Assembly (NCBI GenBank): GCA_913057685.1
Contig: CAJXOA010000011.1
Location: 1-61,958 of the forward strand
Direction: 5' to 3'
DNA length: 61,958 nucleotides
Source of the DNA: an uncultured Trueperaceae bacterium
GTDB taxonomy: Bacteria; Deinococcota; Deinococci; Deinococcales; Trueperaceae
In this document: piece after piece, positions 1,083 through 7,700 of the stretch
How the letters are laid out: every line of letters starts with the position of its first letter
How positions within the stretch are numbered: position 1 is the first letter of the stretch
Translations under genes and position numbers: made by a program
Notes under the pieces: model-generated
Told to the model about the DNA's origin: nothing
The model's input: the letters and a program-made list of their open reading frames with translations, nothing else
The model's database searches: none

Positions 1083-1487
1083 TCAGCCGAGCGGGCGGAG
1101 GTCCTCGACGATCTGCCAGCCGACGCCCTCGGGGGTCCGTTCGAGCGCCGCCTGGAGGGTTTCTGCGAGCCACGGCGCGTACCGGCCGGCCTCCTCCTCG
1201 CTGGCGGCGAAGGTCAGGACCGTCACCTGGTGGACGCGTTGGGTGGCGGCGAGGGTGCCGTCGTCGAAGAAGGTGAACGGCGGCGCCGGCAGTTCGTCCC
1301 AGAGGACGTGGATGTCGGGATCGAGGCGTTCGGGCAGGTACGCGCCGAGGTCGACGTCGGCCTCCTTCGGGAACCACAGGTAGCCCTGCAGGATGCGGAT
1401 GGGCCGCGGTTCGTCGGGGTCGTCCGCCGGCTCGTTCGCGATGGGCAGCGCCAGGTCGGGGTCGCGCCCGGGGTCGGCGGGGGTCAC
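1083..1487 (-). CDS. Uncharacterised 134-residue protein, last gene of the oxidase operon
   Basis: I do not recognise this family. The protein is acidic and soluble-looking, with no signal peptide or membrane segment. It carries aromatic-rich stretches (LQGYLWFPKEADVD, HVLWDELPAPPFTFF) and an amphipathic C-terminal helix. The GTG start at 1487 overlaps the TGA of the upstream HAD gene as GTGA, which fixes the start and argues for translational coupling. Only the last 134 codons of a longer open frame are taken as coding; the rest is the shadow of the HAD gene. Its place at the end of the cytochrome oxidase operon gives no firm functional clue. Confidence 0.7.
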   Translation of the reverse strand: MTPADPGRDPDLALPIANEPADDPDEPRPIRILQGYLWFPKEADVDLGAYLPERLDPDIHVLWDELPAPPFTFFDDGTLAATQRVHQVTVLTFAASEEEAGRYAPWLAETLQAALERTPEGVGWQIVEDLRPLG

Positions 1488-2116
1488 GCCCCGGCCGCCT
1501 CCCGGAGCGACGCGGGGATCGGCACGTCGGGCACCTGCGTCCGCCAGCCGTCCAGGAACGTCGCGAGGTCGGGCAGGTGGACGGGGTGCAGCCCGTACGC
1601 GCGGGCGGCGTCGACGTTGCGGGCGGCGTCGTCGACGAACACCGTCGCGTCCGCCGGCACGCCGAGCGCCCGCTCGAGCGCTTCGTAGGCGCGGGGGTCG
1701 GGCTTGCGGACGTGGATCTCGTTGCTGAACACCCAGTGCTCGACCCGCGCCATGCGCGGGTCGTCGCGCACGAGGTCGCACAACTCGGGCACGTTGTTCG
1801 AGAGGACGCCGACCGTGTAGTGGTCGGGGATCGCGTCGAGCAGGTCGATCATCGCCGGACGCTCGGGGATCGCACCGAGGAAGGTCGCGCGGAACGCGTT
1901 TGGTTCCAGCCCCAAGGCGACCGCCGCCTCGAGGCGGCGGTGGAGCTCGGCGAGGTCGAAGCGGCCCTCCTCGAACGGCGCCATCGCCTCGAGGTAGGGC
2001 CCCTCGAGGGTCGCCGCGTCGACGCCGGAGGCGTCGGCGAGGGCGCGCACGGCGGCGGCGTCGAAGGTCCCGTCGGTGAAGACGCCGCCCCAATCGAAGG
2101 CGATCGCGCGGATCAC
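1484..2116 (-). CDS. HAD-superfamily hydrolase (subfamily IA)
   Basis: A predicted cytosolic phosphatase of 210 residues. The HAD motifs appear in order: FDWGGVF at the N-terminus (nucleophile Asp), VLSNN (motif II Ser), KPDPRAYE (motif III Lys) and FVDDAARNV (motif IV acidic pair). The second position of motif I is Trp and the usual second Asp is replaced in DWGGV, as in many HAD-IA proteins of the FDxGGV type. The GTG start at 2116 overlaps the ctaG stop as GTGA, and its own stop overlaps the next gene the same way. The substrate is unknown. Linkage to oxidase assembly could be incidental. Confidence 0.85.
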   Translation of the reverse strand: MIRAIAFDWGGVFTDGTFDAAAVRALADASGVDAATLEGPYLEAMAPFEEGRFDLAELHRRLEAAVALGLEPNAFRATFLGAIPERPAMIDLLDAIPDHYTVGVLSNNVPELCDLVRDDPRMARVEHWVFSNEIHVRKPDPRAYEALERALGVPADATVFVDDAARNVDAARAYGLHPVHLPDLATFLDGWRTQVPDVPIPASLREAAGA

Positions 2117-2949
2117 GCCGGGTCGCCCGCGGGCGTGGCGTCGGTCGGCGCGACGCGGGGCGGCCCCTGCGGGCCGGACTCCTCGGCGTACCAGCGGAAG
2201 AAGATGACGGCGAAGGGGATGCCGAACGCCAGCAGGCCGCCGGTCTTCATGATCGCGCCGGCGAGGACCTGTTCGCTGTGCGGGTGCATGCCGAGGGTCC
2301 AGAAGGCGTTGGCGTACGTCGGGTAGAGGACCTGGTCGGCGAAGGTGATCGCGCCGAACGTGGGGATCTGCACCACCGGCAGCAGGAACAGGTAGGCGAG
2401 GCGCAGCACGTGCGGGAGGCGCGGCAGCTCCTCGAGGCGGCTCATCAGGGGCCACCACATCATGAGCGACGTGACCAGGAAGGCGACGTGTTCGGCGTGG
2501 TGCAACGTCGAGTTCCGCAGGGCGCCCTCGTAGATGGCGGGGACGTGCCAGGCGGAGAAGAAGAAGCTGAACGCGACGAAGCCGACGACCGGGTGCAGCA
2601 GGACCTTCGACACGCGGGCGCGGCCGCCGCCCAGCAGCAGCGGGCGGAGCATCCAGGTGGGGGTCGTGGCGATCAACGCGGGCGCGGCGACGTAGGCGAT
2701 GCCGAGGTGCTGCACCATGTGCGCGGTCAGCGAGTAGCGTTCGGCGAGGTCGTGCAGCGGCGACCCCTCGAACAGGTAGAGCAGCGCGAGGGTGCCGTAG
2801 AAGCCGGCCGCCGCCCGGCGGGGGAACGGCTCGCCGGGCGCGAGGCGCGCGCGGAGCGGGCCGGCGGCAAGGCCGTACACGACGGCCAGCGTCAGCAGGC
2901 TGCCGAGCAGCACGGGATCGGTTTGCCATCCGAGGTACAGCTCGGGCAT
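2113..2949 (-). CDS. ctaG: CtaG-family cytochrome c oxidase assembly protein
   Basis: A polytopic membrane protein of 278 residues from the caa3-type CtaG family (distinct from the mitochondrial Cox11-type CtaG), needed for assembly of the copper-haem oxidase. About seven hydrophobic segments are visible. Conserved-looking histidine-rich turns include HMVQHLG, HPVVGF, SAWHVPAIYEGAL and HHAEH, which suit metal handling. It lies 19 nt after the fused subunit IV gene inside the oxidase operon, which supports the call. The ATG start at 2949 follows a GAGG-type ribosome-binding site. The downstream HAD start overlaps its stop codon. Confidence 0.88.
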   Translation of the reverse strand: MPELYLGWQTDPVLLGSLLTLAVVYGLAAGPLRARLAPGEPFPRRAAAGFYGTLALLYLFEGSPLHDLAERYSLTAHMVQHLGIAYVAAPALIATTPTWMLRPLLLGGGRARVSKVLLHPVVGFVAFSFFFSAWHVPAIYEGALRNSTLHHAEHVAFLVTSLMMWWPLMSRLEELPRLPHVLRLAYLFLLPVVQIPTFGAITFADQVLYPTYANAFWTLGMHPHSEQVLAGAIMKTGGLLAFGIPFAVIFFRWYAEESGPQGPPRVAPTDATPAGDPA

Positions 2950-2968: not shown

Positions 2969-4060
2969 TCAGGGAAGGTCGAGGGCGTTCCGCAGCTCGT
3001 AGACGTCGGCGGCGGTCAGGCCACCGTCGCGCTGGGCGGCGACCTCCTCGGGCGTGAAGGGCGTGAAGTCGTCGGCGAGGAGCGCCTCGTTGCCCCACGC
3101 GGTCGCGGCGTGGTTCAGCGTGTTGGCGAGGACGTCGTCCCCGAGGTACCCCCAGGCGGGCATCACGCCGGCGTACGTCATGCCCTGCACCTCGATCTCG
3201 CCCTGCAGGCCGTACAGCAGCGAGGAGATCACGTAGGTGCGCCCCGCGTCGCTGGCGACGAGGGTCGGGAAATGCTCGGCGAGGGGCGGGAAGGCGCCGG
3301 GGAGGCCCGCGCCGTTCGCCTGGTGGCAGGAGGCGCAGTTCGCGGTGTACGCCGCTTCGGCGGCGGCGGGGTCGAACGACGCGACCTCGGTCGCCTGCGC
3401 CGCCTCGTCGGGGGCGGGTTCCGCGTCGGTGGGGGCCGGTGCGGCCTCCGCGGGGGCGGGCGCTTCGTCGCCGGCGGGGGCGGCTTCGGCGCGGGCGGCC
3501 CCGAAGGCCGGGGTGGAGAGGGCGACCGTCCAGCCGTCGCTCGCGGCGGCGGGCGGCGTGACGCGCAGCGTCTGATCCTTGGGCGGGCCTTCGCGCAGGA
3601 CGTCGCTCAGCGGGCGGCTGTAGCCGTCGCTCTCGATCGCCGCGCGGGTCTCCTCGGAGATGCCGCCCCCGTAGCCGCCTCCGTAGCCGTCGCCCTCGGC
3701 CTCCCCGTGCGCCGGTTGCGAGACGGTGAGGGCCGCCTGCCGGATTTCGGGAAGGCTGGCGGGCAGCGTCATCAGGAAGGTGAAGGCGACGAACGTTCCG
3801 AAGCCGATCACCATGCCGCTCGTGAAGAAGCCGGTGTAGGTGGCGTCGTCGTCCTTGAGGTGCATGAAGTAGGCGATGACCATCACGAACTTCGCGAGGC
3901 TGAGCGCGATCAGCCAGAAGAGGATGGCGCCCGGTCCGAGCCACGCGATCTCGTACTCGATGATCGCGAACTCGACGTAGGTGATGACGGCGAGGATCAG
4001 CGCGACGATGACGTAGCCGCGGATCCCGTGCGATTCGTGGGTGTCGTGCTCGCTGCTCAT
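2969..4060 (-). CDS. Cytochrome c oxidase subunit IV fused to a C-terminal cytochrome c domain
   Basis: Residues 1-105 match the bacterial subunit IV (COX4_pro/CtaF-like) fold: three membrane segments at about 14-34, 43-65 and 76-99, with the characteristic SLAKFVMVIAYFMHLK stretch. Residues about 106-235 form a low-complexity linker (GYGGGYGGG, then an Ala/Pro/Glu-rich run). Residues about 236-363 form a class I c-type cytochrome with CASCH at 242-246 and a probable distal Met at 300 (GVMPAW). Subunit IV alone is usually around 100 residues. Since CtaC already carries a haem-c domain, this complex would hold two c haems. Stop and start signals are clean, and no frameshift is needed to give the fusion. 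Confidence 0.87.
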   Translation of the reverse strand: MSSEHDTHESHGIRGYVIVALILAVITYVEFAIIEYEIAWLGPGAILFWLIALSLAKFVMVIAYFMHLKDDDATYTGFFTSGMVIGFGTFVAFTFLMTLPASLPEIRQAALTVSQPAHGEAEGDGYGGGYGGGISEETRAAIESDGYSRPLSDVLREGPPKDQTLRVTPPAAASDGWTVALSTPAFGAARAEAAPAGDEAPAPAEAAPAPTDAEPAPDEAAQATEVASFDPAAAEAAYTANCASCHQANGAGLPGAFPPLAEHFPTLVASDAGRTYVISSLLYGLQGEIEVQGMTYAGVMPAWGYLGDDVLANTLNHAATAWGNEALLADDFTPFTPEEVAAQRDGGLTAADVYELRNALDLP

Positions 4061-4067
4061 GGGAACC

Positions 4068-4700
4068 TCAGCCGCCCGCCCCGGGAACGAAGTCCACGAG
4101 GTAGACGAGGGTGAAGATGACGATCCAGACGACGTCGACGAAGTGCCAGTACAACCCGGCGACCTCGAGGTTCGTCGCGTCCTTCGACGTCCACGGGCGG
4201 ACGTAGCTGGCGACGACGATCGACAGCAGCCACAACACCCCGATCGCGACGTGCACGCCGTGCGTGCCGGTCAGGACGTAGAACGTGGTGCCGAACAGGT
4301 TGCCCTGCAGCGTGAGGCCGAGGTCGACGAAGTGGTTGAACTCGTACACCTGGAAGCCGAGGAAGATCGCGCCGAAGAAGGCGACCCCGAACGTCCACAG
4401 GCGGAACTTGCCGATGTCGTTGCGCTTGAGCGCGTCGAGGGCGATGACCATCAGGAACGAGCTCATCAGCAGCACGAAGGTGCTGACGGTCGTGAGGGGG
4501 ATGTCGAGGACGTCCTGCGGGTAGGGGCCGGTGAGGCTGCGGCCCTTGTAGATCAGGTAGGTGCCGATCAGGGTGCCGAAGAACATGATGTCGGACGCCA
4601 GGAAGATCCACATCATGAGCTTCATGTCGGGCAGCTTGCTGCTGCGCCAACCGTGCGCCGGGACGCTCGGGGCGGCGGTGGCGGGGGCGTCGGCGGCCAT
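4068..4700 (-). CDS. ctaE: Cytochrome c oxidase subunit III
   Basis: Membrane subunit of the haem-copper oxidase, 210 residues, five or so transmembrane segments; a short form lacking the first two helices of the mitochondrial subunit, as is common in caa3 enzymes. Diagnostic stretches include MWIFLASDIMFFGTLIG, GFQVYEFNHF, TGTHGVHVAIG and YWHFVDVVWIVIF. The ATG at 4700 overlaps the ctaD stop as TGATG (1 nt), so the genes are translationally linked. It ends 7 nt before the subunit IV fusion gene. Assignment is secure. Confidence 0.95.
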   Translation of the reverse strand: MAADAPATAAPSVPAHGWRSSKLPDMKLMMWIFLASDIMFFGTLIGTYLIYKGRSLTGPYPQDVLDIPLTTVSTFVLLMSSFLMVIALDALKRNDIGKFRLWTFGVAFFGAIFLGFQVYEFNHFVDLGLTLQGNLFGTTFYVLTGTHGVHVAIGVLWLLSIVVASYVRPWTSKDATNLEVAGLYWHFVDVVWIVIFTLVYLVDFVPGAGG

Positions 4701-6616
4701 CAGTCGCCCGCGCCCTCCGCCGCGTCGTCACCGGGGTGCACGTGGTGCCCACCGACGCCCTCGAACGCCCAGCCGTACGTCGCGCCGGTCAGGACGACCA
4801 GCATGAGGATCGACAGCGGCCAGTTCTCGAACAACAGCCCGTAGCCGGCGATGAAGATCGCGAGGGCGAGGAGGAACGGGTACCACGACTGGCCGGGCAT
4901 GTGGATGCCGTGCGAATCGAAGTCCACGCCCTCCCACTGCGAGCCGTCGTCGCCGTGCGACAGCTCGGGGTACTTCTGCGCCCAGAAGGCGTCGCGGTCG
5001 GTGACGATCGGTTGCTCGTCGAAGTTGTGGTGCTGCGGCGGGCTGGTGGCGGCCCACTCGAGGGTGCGCGCGTCCCACGGGTCGTTCCCGGCCGGTTGGC
5101 CCTTGCGGAAGGCGTAGATGACGCTGAACAGCAGCATGAACAGCGCCGTGCCCATCACGAACGTCCCGGCGGTGGAGACGAGGTTCCAGATCTCCAGGCC
5201 GATGCCCGCCTCGTACGTCTGCGTGCGGCGCGGCATGCCCATGAGGCCGGCGAAGTGCTGCGGCATGAAGATCATGTTGAAGCCGACGAACATCGCCCAG
5301 AAGGTGTACTGCCCGAAGCGTTCGGGGAGCAGCTTGCCGGTGAGTTTCGGGAACCAGTAGTAGACGCCGGCGAAGAAGGCGAACAGCGCGCCGCCGCCCA
5401 TGACGTAGTGGAAGTGCGCGACGACGAAGTAGCTGTCGGTCGCCTGCGCCGTGAACGGCGGCATGGCGAGCATGATGCCGGTGATCCCGCCGATCACGAA
5501 CATGAACAGGAACGCCATCGCGTACAGCATCGAGGTCGTGAAGCGCACCGAGCCGCCCCACATGGTGCCGAGCCAGTTGAAGATCTTCACGCCGGTCGGC
5601 ACGCCGATCACGAAGCTGGTGAGGGCGAAGGCGGTGTTCGCGACGGGCCCGAGGCCGGTCGTGAACATGTGGTGGCTCCAGACGGCGAAGCCCATGAAGC
5701 CGATGAAGATGCCCGACAGGATCATGACGGGGTAGCCGAAGATCGGCTTGCGGGAGAAGGTCGGGATGACCTCGCTGATGACCCCGAACGCCGGGAGGAT
5801 GACGATGTACACCTCCGGGTGCCCGAAGATCCAGAACAGGTGCTGCCACAGGATCGGCAGACCGCCGGCCTCGGGGACGTAGAACAACGTCCCGAAGGTG
5901 CGGTCGAAGACGATCTGCGTGAGCGCGATCGTGAGGGGCGGGAAGGCGAAGACGATCAGGAACGACGTCACCAGGATCATCCACACGAACACCGGCATGC
6001 GCATCATCGTCATGCCGGGCGCGCGCATGCTGAAGATCGTCACGATCAGGTTCATCGCCGTCACCAGGCTGCCGATCCCGCCGATCAGCAGGCCGATCAT
6101 GTAGAAGTCGGTGCCGTTGCCGGGGTTGTTCGACAGGCTCGTCAGCGGCGCGTAGGCGAACCAGCCGACGTCCGGCGCGCCGCCGAGGAAGAAGCTGCTG
6201 TAGACGAAGATTCCGCCCGCGGCGTACACCCAGTACCCGAAGGCGTTCAGGCGGGGGAAGGCGAGATCGCGCGCCCCGATCATGAGGGGCACGAAGTAGT
6301 TCGCGAAGCCGGTCCCGAGCGGCATGATCGCGAGGAAGATCATCGTCACGCCGTGCATCGTGAACAGCTGGTTGTAGACGTCGGGGCTGACGAGCTCCAT
6401 GCCCGGCGCCGCCAACTGCAGGCGGATGATGAACGCCTCGATGCTGGCGAGGCCCATGAAGGTGAACGACGTCAGGATGTACAGGATCCCGAGTCGCTTG
6501 TGGTCGACGGTCGTCAACCAACTACCGATCCCCTTCGTCCACGCCGGCCGGGCCAGCAGGCCGCCGCCGGCGTCCGGCGCGGCGGGGGCGGGAACGTCGC
6601 GTCTACCGATCGCCAT
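4700..6616 (-). CDS. ctaD: Cytochrome c oxidase subunit I (A1-type)
   Basis: Catalytic subunit, 638 residues, holding haem a, haem a3 and CuB. Visible landmarks: the helix II His in TMHGVTMIF; GHPEVYIVILP with the CuB His, the proton-channel Glu and the cross-linked Tyr; SHHMFTTG (CuB His pair); TGVKIFNW (K-channel Lys); ARDLAFPRLN (D-channel Asp); and AHFHYVMGG (haem ligands). This is the full A-type set. The C-terminus carries two additional membrane segments beyond the usual twelve. The ATG at 6616 follows GGAGG with 5-nt spacing. An upstream in-frame TTG at 6628 lies on that ribosome-binding site and is rejected. It overlaps ctaC by 14 nt. Confidence 0.97.
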   Translation of the reverse strand: MAIGRRDVPAPAAPDAGGGLLARPAWTKGIGSWLTTVDHKRLGILYILTSFTFMGLASIEAFIIRLQLAAPGMELVSPDVYNQLFTMHGVTMIFLAIMPLGTGFANYFVPLMIGARDLAFPRLNAFGYWVYAAGGIFVYSSFFLGGAPDVGWFAYAPLTSLSNNPGNGTDFYMIGLLIGGIGSLVTAMNLIVTIFSMRAPGMTMMRMPVFVWMILVTSFLIVFAFPPLTIALTQIVFDRTFGTLFYVPEAGGLPILWQHLFWIFGHPEVYIVILPAFGVISEVIPTFSRKPIFGYPVMILSGIFIGFMGFAVWSHHMFTTGLGPVANTAFALTSFVIGVPTGVKIFNWLGTMWGGSVRFTTSMLYAMAFLFMFVIGGITGIMLAMPPFTAQATDSYFVVAHFHYVMGGGALFAFFAGVYYWFPKLTGKLLPERFGQYTFWAMFVGFNMIFMPQHFAGLMGMPRRTQTYEAGIGLEIWNLVSTAGTFVMGTALFMLLFSVIYAFRKGQPAGNDPWDARTLEWAATSPPQHHNFDEQPIVTDRDAFWAQKYPELSHGDDGSQWEGVDFDSHGIHMPGQSWYPFLLALAIFIAGYGLLFENWPLSILMLVVLTGATYGWAFEGVGGHHVHPGDDAAEGAGD

Positions 6617-7700
6617 GGTCGCCTCCAACGAATGCGCGTGCTTCGGTCTCGTCCGGTGTGCCGAGGCTGAGCAGGTACGCCGCCACCGCGGCGATCTCCT
6701 CGTCCGCGTCGGGGTCGTCCTCCGACCACAACGCCGGCATGTAGTTGCCCGGCTTCAGCGCATCGGGGTCGCGCAGCCAGGCCTCGAGGTTCTCTTGGGT
6801 GTTGGGCAGGATCGCCGCGCCGAGCGTGGTGCGCGTCCCGAAGTTCGTCAGGTCGGGGAACTCCGGCGTGCCGACCGGGGTCGAGCGGTAGCCGTCGACC
6901 GTGTGGCAGGTGGTGCAGCCCTTCTGCGCGAACAGCTGGTGGCCGCGCTGCACCTGCGGGTCGGCCTGCACCCGCTGGGCGCCGTCGATGTCGAACGTGT
7001 CCGCCCACGCCTCGAAGGCGGCGGGCTCCTCGGAGATCACGCGGAACTTCATGTACGCGTGCGCGCCGAGGCACAACTCCGCGCACTGCCCGTAGTACTC
7101 GCCCGCCTCGGGGGCGGTGAACACCAGCTGGTTGTCCTGGTTCGGGATCATGTCGCGCTTGCCCGCCAGGCGCGGCACCCAGAAGCTGTGCAGGACGTCG
7201 GCGGAGTCGAGCTGCAGGACGACCCGCCGGTCGGTCGGGACGCGCAGTTCGTTGGCGGTGGTGATGCCGTACTCGGGGTACTCGAACTTCCACCACCACT
7301 GGTAGCCGGTCACCTTCACGACGAGGTCGTCCTCGGTGGGCGTCACCCGCGCTTCGGTCGCGAAGATCGTGCGGACGGTCGGGACCGCGACCATCACGAC
7401 GATGATGACCGGCACGATCGTCAACGCGATCTCGAGCTTCGGGTTGCCGTGGCTCTGTTCGGGGACGTCGGTGCGCTGCCCGCGGCGGTAGCGCAGGATG
7501 ACGTACGCGAGCACGCCGAACGTCCCGATCATCACCAGGGCGCTGAGCCAGAGCGACCAGTTGAACAGGTCCAGCTGCGCCTGCGCGATCGGGCCGGCGG
7601 GGTCGAGGGCGGACTGCGGTCCGGCGAAGTCGCATCCGGACAGCAGCAGCGCCGCGAGGATCGGCGGGACCGCCGATCGAAACCACCTCGTCATGGGCAC
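6603..7700 (-). CDS. ctaC: Cytochrome c oxidase subunit II with C-terminal cytochrome c (caa3 type)
   Basis: Periplasm-facing electron-entry subunit, 365 residues. A lipoprotein-type signal ends at LLLSGC (Cys about 23). Two membrane segments follow, then the cupredoxin domain with the CuA ligands: His in VLHSFWVP and GQCAELCLGAHAYM (two Cys, His, Met). A C-terminal haem-c domain has CTTCH and a likely distal Met in NYMPALW. The preferred start is GTG 7700, 8 nt after AGGAGG; an ATG two codons on is possible but badly spaced. This is the first gene of the operon, with promoter signals upstream. Confidence 0.96.
   Translation of the reverse strand: MPMTRWFRSAVPPILAALLLSGCDFAGPQSALDPAGPIAQAQLDLFNWSLWLSALVMIGTFGVLAYVILRYRRGQRTDVPEQSHGNPKLEIALTIVPVIIVVMVAVPTVRTIFATEARVTPTEDDLVVKVTGYQWWWKFEYPEYGITTANELRVPTDRRVVLQLDSADVLHSFWVPRLAGKRDMIPNQDNQLVFTAPEAGEYYGQCAELCLGAHAYMKFRVISEEPAAFEAWADTFDIDGAQRVQADPQVQRGHQLFAQKGCTTCHTVDGYRSTPVGTPEFPDLTNFGTRTTLGAAILPNTQENLEAWLRDPDALKPGNYMPALWSEDDPDADEEIAAVAAYLLSLGTPDETEARAFVGGDHGDR

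Follow-up and report, generated by a model that had tools for sequence, protein, structure and literature searches.

Cytochrome c552 fused to subunit IV of a caa3-type oxidase in Trueperaceae: a candidate tethered electron shuttle

In Thermus, cytochrome c552 is reported to serve as physiological electron donor to the ba3 oxidase as well as to the caa3 oxidase; when isolated, the c552-like part of diheme cytochrome c550, a protein that passes electrons to c552 in the sulfite pathway, is quickly oxidised by the same two enzymes (PMC3561395). Rhodobacter cytochrome cy serves between complex III and the oxidase with a haem-c head on a linker of 69 residues, of which about 45 are enough for respiration, and an engineered CcoP-linker-cy fusion works (PMC7876108). 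A mobile ActA haem head has been proposed as the bridge from alternative complex III to the aa3 oxidase of Flavobacterium (PMC8552683), and in Rhodothermus alternative complex III and a caa3 oxidase form a supercomplex placed for direct haem-to-haem transfer (PMC5928083). An additional haem c can also serve as a branch point, as in the Neisseria CcoP cited in PMC8552683.

Fusions among oxidase genes are familiar. The available part of one survey describes COX2-cytochrome c, COX1-COX3 and COX1-COX4 fusions and, in that part, makes no mention of a subunit IV-cytochrome c fusion (PMC4013037); appendix Table A3 of PMC8756737 contains two entries, PKB63614.1 and PIQ26724.1, with a cytochrome domain and COX IV in one open reading frame. 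Our full-text literature search, largely of open-access papers, returned no description of a subunit IV-c552 fusion. To our knowledge, the known subunits IV of caa3 oxidases carry no haem. Here we describe such a fusion in a Trueperaceae genome. Its parts are all known and their arrangement seems to be undescribed; an earlier sequence-only reading had likewise not known the architecture as standard for caa3 enzymes, in line with its absence from the caa3 literature searched.

The window, a stretch of 61,958 nucleotides from an uncultured Trueperaceae bacterium, contains an oxidase operon in the order ctaC, ctaD, ctaE, IV-c552 fusion, ctaG, with the fused gene between ctaE and ctaG (Table 1). 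CtaD scores 711 bits against the A1-type CtaD/CoxA model TIGR02891 (cut-off 670.75) and carries the GHPEV motif. CtaC exceeds the cut-offs of COX2, COX2_TM and Cytochrom_C, the last marking the C-terminal haem-c domain (CTTCH) that the sequence-only reading had pointed out, and contains the CuA motif CAELCLGAHAYM. By sequence, these features identify the operon as one for an A1-type caa3 haem-copper oxidase. Across the 21 operons examined the neighbours of the fused gene are unchanged, and CtaC has one CXXCH wherever it was retrieved. The HAD-family hydrolase downstream of ctaG probably has an unrelated function.

Table 1 Positions of the features discussed, in the window unless another contig is named.
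Feature	Position	Strand	Evidence or content
HAD-family hydrolase	1484..2116	minus	PF00702; follows ctaG in most family operons
ctaG, caa3 assembly factor	2113..2949	minus	PF09678, 1.3e-47
Subunit IV (COX4_pro)-linker-cytochrome c552 domain fusion	2969..4060	minus	single frame, 363 aa; coding 4060..2972
Subunit IV part, residues 1-98	3767..4060	minus	PF03626, 33.9 bits; AF2 helices 11-35, 43-68, 72-98; 8f68_D
Linker, residues 99-227	3380..3766	minus	pLDDT < 50, composition, conservation
Cytochrome c552 domain, residues 228-363	2972..3379	minus	phmmer to 1c52/2fwl; Foldseek 1c52; invariant haem ligands
ctaE, cytochrome oxidase subunit III	4068..4700	minus	PF00510, 1.6e-14
ctaD, cytochrome oxidase subunit I	4700..6613	minus	TIGR02891; A1-type GHPEV motif at 264
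ctaC, subunit II, CuA motif and C-terminal haem-c domain	6603..7700	minus	COX2_TM, COX2, Cytochrom_C; CTTCH at 262
Alternative complex III operon	contig 40, L227:6335-13890 and L233:3872-4582		ActA-like, ActB, ActC, ActD, ActE, ActF, then TM-anchored c552
Diheme protein	contig 49, L228:7701-9095		N-terminal CQQCH domain, C-terminal c552 domain
ba3 CuA subunit with C-terminal c552 domain, then ba3 subunit I gene	contig 16, L229:6027-8638		PF09125 and COX2

The fused gene is read without interruption through both of its domains. COX4_pro (PF03626) covers residues 17-85 above its curated Pfam cut-off of 28.9 bits; together with three predicted transmembrane helices and the adjoining ctaE, this places the N-terminal part in that family. 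The narrower subunit IV subfamily caa3_sub_IV (TIGR02229) is not reached (18.5 bits, cut-off 37.25), and we file the subunit IV part under COX4_pro only. From residue 233 onward Cytochrom_C is also above its Pfam cut-off, and residues 236-360 align by phmmer with almost the full length of Thermus thermophilus cytochrome c552 in the Protein Data Bank (E about 4e-34). The haem motif CASCH occupies residues 242-246 and Met300, which aligns with the methionine of the c552 GVM motif, would be the axial ligand; C242, C245, H246 and M300 are invariant in all ten aligned full-length fusions. A generic cytochrome c identity for the head was dropped on the phmmer and Foldseek evidence, which assigns it to the Thermus-type c552 family, C-terminal extension, CXXCH and axial methionine included. 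The fusion as a protein does not itself qualify as a Thermus-type c552, since its head is attached to a membrane subunit with three helices, whereas that cytochrome is a soluble periplasmic carrier.

The sequence-only reading had proposed a three-helix subunit IV continued by a 130-residue low-complexity linker into a complete haem-c domain (CASCH, Met300), and from this two c-haem sites on different subunits of one operon. The domain matches and predicted helices bear this out, with CASCH in the fusion and CTTCH in CtaC. The linker is rich in A, P, G and E and predicted to be disordered, and its length is corrected to 129 residues (about 99-227).

An AlphaFold2 monomer model, built with nine related sequences and of moderate confidence, has the head folded, with pLDDT mostly 70-90; the overall mean of only 58 is driven down by the linker. 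Searched with Foldseek, the model ranks Thermus c552 (1c52) first, with a TMt of 0.84 and 49% identity, and gives a weak match to Escherichia coli CyoD, subunit IV of the bo3 oxidase (8f68_D; E 1.4, TMt 0.66). In CyoD the C-terminus lies on the periplasmic side. The three helices of the fusion, and the positive charges at its N-terminus and in the loop at 68-72, argue for the same orientation, so that the haem head would be periplasmic. Among family fusions the linkers vary between about 65 and 273 residues and are rich in A, P, G, E, T and D, while both flanking domains are conserved, as would be expected of a tether; for the linker in the window a worm-like-chain estimate gives a root-mean-square span of about 6-8 nm. 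One segment of it, 'DGYSRPL...PPKDQTLRVTPPAA' (residues about 145-172, window about 3545-3630), is weakly conserved, recognisable in many family members, and could be a docking motif. Compared with two relatives of the same genus, dN/dS is 0.22-0.42 across the three parts of the fusion, with its minimum in the membrane part and its maximum in the linker; this indicates purifying selection on each of them.

The arrangement is not confined to this genome: it extends through the family and turns up again in a different phylum. Our family sample comprised 39 genomes; COX4_pro scores above its cut-off in 31 of them, and all 31 show the fused arrangement. The frame runs on complete into the c552 domain in 28 of these, and CXXCH lies in the same frame in 29; of the incomplete frames, that of G008 ends at a contig end after CXXCH, that of G016 ends before it, and that of G025 is broken by a run of N. 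Fusions were found in single-contig genomes, including G012, G021 and one of 3,260,398 bases. One genome, G002, has an extra unfused COX4_pro copy of 88 residues, and in three (G007, G009 and G030) the fusion protein bears two c552 heads, so that each oxidase would have three sites for haem c. In other genomes c552 domains also stand in tandem, two or three to a protein (G002:C11:29576-30973, G028:C105:38980-39846, G032:C235:6106-7113 and L096), with no subunit IV fusion as far as seen. Matched named loci have record titles that are mostly Trueperaceae. In the remainder of the class COX4_pro is unfused; its frames measure 115-166 residues, apart from a single frame of 273 residues that has no haem motif.

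Outside the family, a scan of named genomes revealed one fusion, L100, whose record is titled 'uncultured proteobacterium'. Sampling of the phylum of that genome (hereafter the second phylum) yielded a full-length match to the L100-type fusion in 15 of 284 genomes, the gene lying between ctaE and ctaG in the cases retrieved. A quick tree of few columns has a branch, with an SH-aLRT support of 99%, that separates the haem domains of the Trueperaceae fusions from those of the second phylum, and the second-phylum fusion is therefore most likely of separate origin from the c552 fusion of Trueperaceae. Two further second-phylum proteins, L200 and L203, join COX4_pro to other cytochromes, with both Pfam domains over their cut-offs. 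A single origin of all COX4-cytochrome fusions was considered and rejected on the strength of that branch and of the different cytochromes in these two proteins. In four second-phylum genomes (the phylum of G111), a stand-alone cytochrome with a lipoprotein-type N-terminus adjoins ctaE (L217, L219, L222 and L224), and shares with the fused cytochrome the pre-haem motif CNAWV..YCSSP or close variants of it. We read the stand-alone and fused forms as a visible fusion or fission of an oxidase-associated cytochrome; the occurrence of the same cytochrome as a lipoprotein beside ctaE supports this identity for the fused head. Among the matches listed for 298 genomes of a third phylum (reached via G112, a record titled Gemmatimonadota), none spans both domains. 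The joining of a haem c to subunit IV is thus recurrent but lineage-restricted.

Two haem-copper oxidases were found in the genome of the window, the caa3 enzyme of the fusion operon and one of ba3 type on contig 16. Cytochrome b (PF00033) had no match in this genome, with Thermus and Deinobacterium matching as positive controls; a bc1 complex was consequently set aside as donor, and an alternative complex III was sought and found on contig 40. ActD matches PF11821 (221 bits), ActC is of NrfD type (PF03916) and an ActB-like Fe-S/molybdopterin-fold protein is encoded; the ActA-like protein has five CXXCH motifs and is devoid of an extra mobile haem domain. The ActE-like lipoprotein cytochrome and the ActF-like membrane protein were assigned by position and sequence. 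With ActB, NrfD-type ActC, ActD and haem subunits all present, the locus qualifies as an alternative complex III, and its operon ends with a c552 on a single-helix anchor. ActD is present in 36 of the 39 family genomes, with a c552 match about 2.5 kb away in those compared by coordinates. It also occurs in many class genomes that lack the fusion, and the proposition that the fusion accompanies alternative complex III was reduced to a loose association.

Altogether the genome encodes five c552 domains: on subunit IV, on the anchored protein, on a diheme c550-like protein (L003), as a soluble protein (L005) and fused to the ba3 CuA subunit. This last fusion and that of subunit IV mean that c552 has been built into both oxidases in Trueperaceae. 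The diheme protein of contig 49 resembles the Thermus diheme c550 of the sulfite pathway. The ba3 CuA subunit-c552 fusion is likewise present in G024 (L032) and in Trueperaceae bin86 (L091). On the ba3 contig, L229:1262-4039 (minus strand) encodes a large secreted protein with Ig-like repeats and C-terminal repeats, 'DTTSVTSLRRTFAGATAFDRDLGAWDVGNVT', that by eye are of the DUF285/BspA kind.

Taken together, the fusion, its conservation, the identities of its domains, the operon and the alternative complex III genes, all assigned from sequence, lead us to favor, at a probability of roughly 0.6, a tethered electron shuttle within the caa3 oxidase, subunit IV having captured a c552 carrier as a covalent head. 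We infer haem loading, topology, assembly into the oxidase, and the direction and partners of electron transfer as follows. The three COX4 helices would anchor the fusion in the membrane domain of the oxidase with the C-terminus in the periplasm, and the disordered linker, reaching 6-8 nm, would allow the haem head to move back and forth from a membrane-associated donor to the entry side of the oxidase. The donor would most likely be alternative complex III with its own membrane-anchored c552, and the acceptor the haem c or CuA of CtaC. Such a head would be a built-in shuttle, one per enzyme, that replaces or speeds the diffusion of soluble c552; and, the ActA of this genome being devoid of an extra haem domain, the mobile head would be supplied from the oxidase side. 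By analogy, the best explanation is that the head works like the membrane-anchored cytochrome cy. Three observations count against the tethered shuttle. The extra head could be redundant beside the haem-c entry domain that CtaC already has; the soluble c552-like L005 means that a tethered head is not the sole possible donor; and alternative complex III, shared with many fusion-free genomes of the class, does not by itself explain the fusion.

The second entry site that the sequence-only reading had offered is the strongest of the alternatives, although we consider it unlikely. Here the head would admit electrons from other dehydrogenases, for example from sulfite oxidoreductase via the diheme c550-like protein, or pass them out to another acceptor. 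The spread of c552 domains over five different proteins, L003 with its likeness to the Thermus sulfite-pathway carrier among them, is in keeping with such a branch, for which the additional haem of Neisseria CcoP (cited in PMC8552683) is a precedent; however, in every genome the partner of the head is a subunit encoded in the oxidase operon, whatever other donors that genome has. A fixed or structural role, in which the head is permanently docked on CtaC or on a partner complex and lengthens the haem chain or holds a complex III-oxidase supercomplex together, is improbable. The Rhodothermus supercomplex (PMC5928083) would be a model for it, and the short conserved segment in mid-linker could do the docking, but the linker is long, variable in length and predicted to be disordered, some homologues have two heads in series, and a docked wire needs no such slack. 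The 'longer wire' of the sequence-only reading accordingly gives way to a mobile donor on a tether. We regard as very improbable that the polypeptide is cleaved after translation into subunit IV and a free c552-type carrier, the fusion securing one-to-one expression: the long linker is probably accessible to proteases and soluble c552 relatives do occur in the family (L005, L033), yet no cleavage site was identified, and the unfused second-phylum cytochrome, with its lipoprotein-type N-terminus, would stay attached to the membrane rather than be set free. Finally, an assembly error or frameshift joining two genes, which the sequence-only reading had allowed for and which a draft genome of 74 contigs might invite, is ruled out for practical purposes by a complete or nearly complete fused frame in 29 genomes, some of them single-contig.

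Supercomplex research is actively asking how an oxidase receives electrons from complex III when no free carrier takes part, and under the tethered-shuttle reading Trueperaceae would supply a naturally occurring oxidase that incorporates its own physiological donor. The natural series of linker lengths (65-273 residues) and head numbers (one or two) makes the idea directly testable, and carriers of the fusion probably include a cultivated species. Subunit IV, usually considered a haem-free accessory, emerges as a recurrent attachment place for redox heads. We venture, tentatively and as something we hold rather less probable than not, the wider notion of a class of haem-copper oxidases in which subunit IV bears, as a swinging arm, the cytochrome c that feeds the enzyme. 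Such oxidases would have arisen repeatedly, those of Trueperaceae using c552 and those of the second phylum three other types of cytochrome, and some lineages would carry two heads. Electrons from alternative complex III would then be delivered intramolecularly, with no dependence on soluble cytochrome c.

Set against known systems, the enzyme shares with the caa3 oxidases of Thermus, Bacillus and Rhodothermus subunits I, II (CuA and C-terminal haem c) and III, a small subunit IV and CtaG, with the same operon content; it differs in the c552 head on subunit IV, which would bring at least two c haems onto two subunits (three haems in three genomes). The head belongs with Thermus thermophilus c552 (1c52, 2fwl) over the full domain, with the C-terminal extension and the ligands kept, and is tethered to an oxidase subunit where the Thermus protein is separate, soluble and periplasmic. 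With Rhodobacter capsulatus cytochrome cy the fusion has in common the design of a membrane anchor, a long flexible linker and a haem-c head moving from complex III to the oxidase. The likeness is one of linker and head logic only, and we do not place the fusion among the cytochromes cy, in which the anchor is a single helix and no oxidase subunit is involved, unlike the three-helix COX4_pro subunit and c552-family head found here. The N-terminal haem-c domain of Flavobacterium johnsoniae ActA is likewise a tethered mobile head, proposed to link alternative complex III to an aa3-type oxidase, but it sits on the donor complex and not on the oxidase, and the ActA of this genome has its five CXXCH motifs and no such domain. 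Gene fusions among oxidase subunits and c-type cytochromes are, in general, common (PMC4013037).
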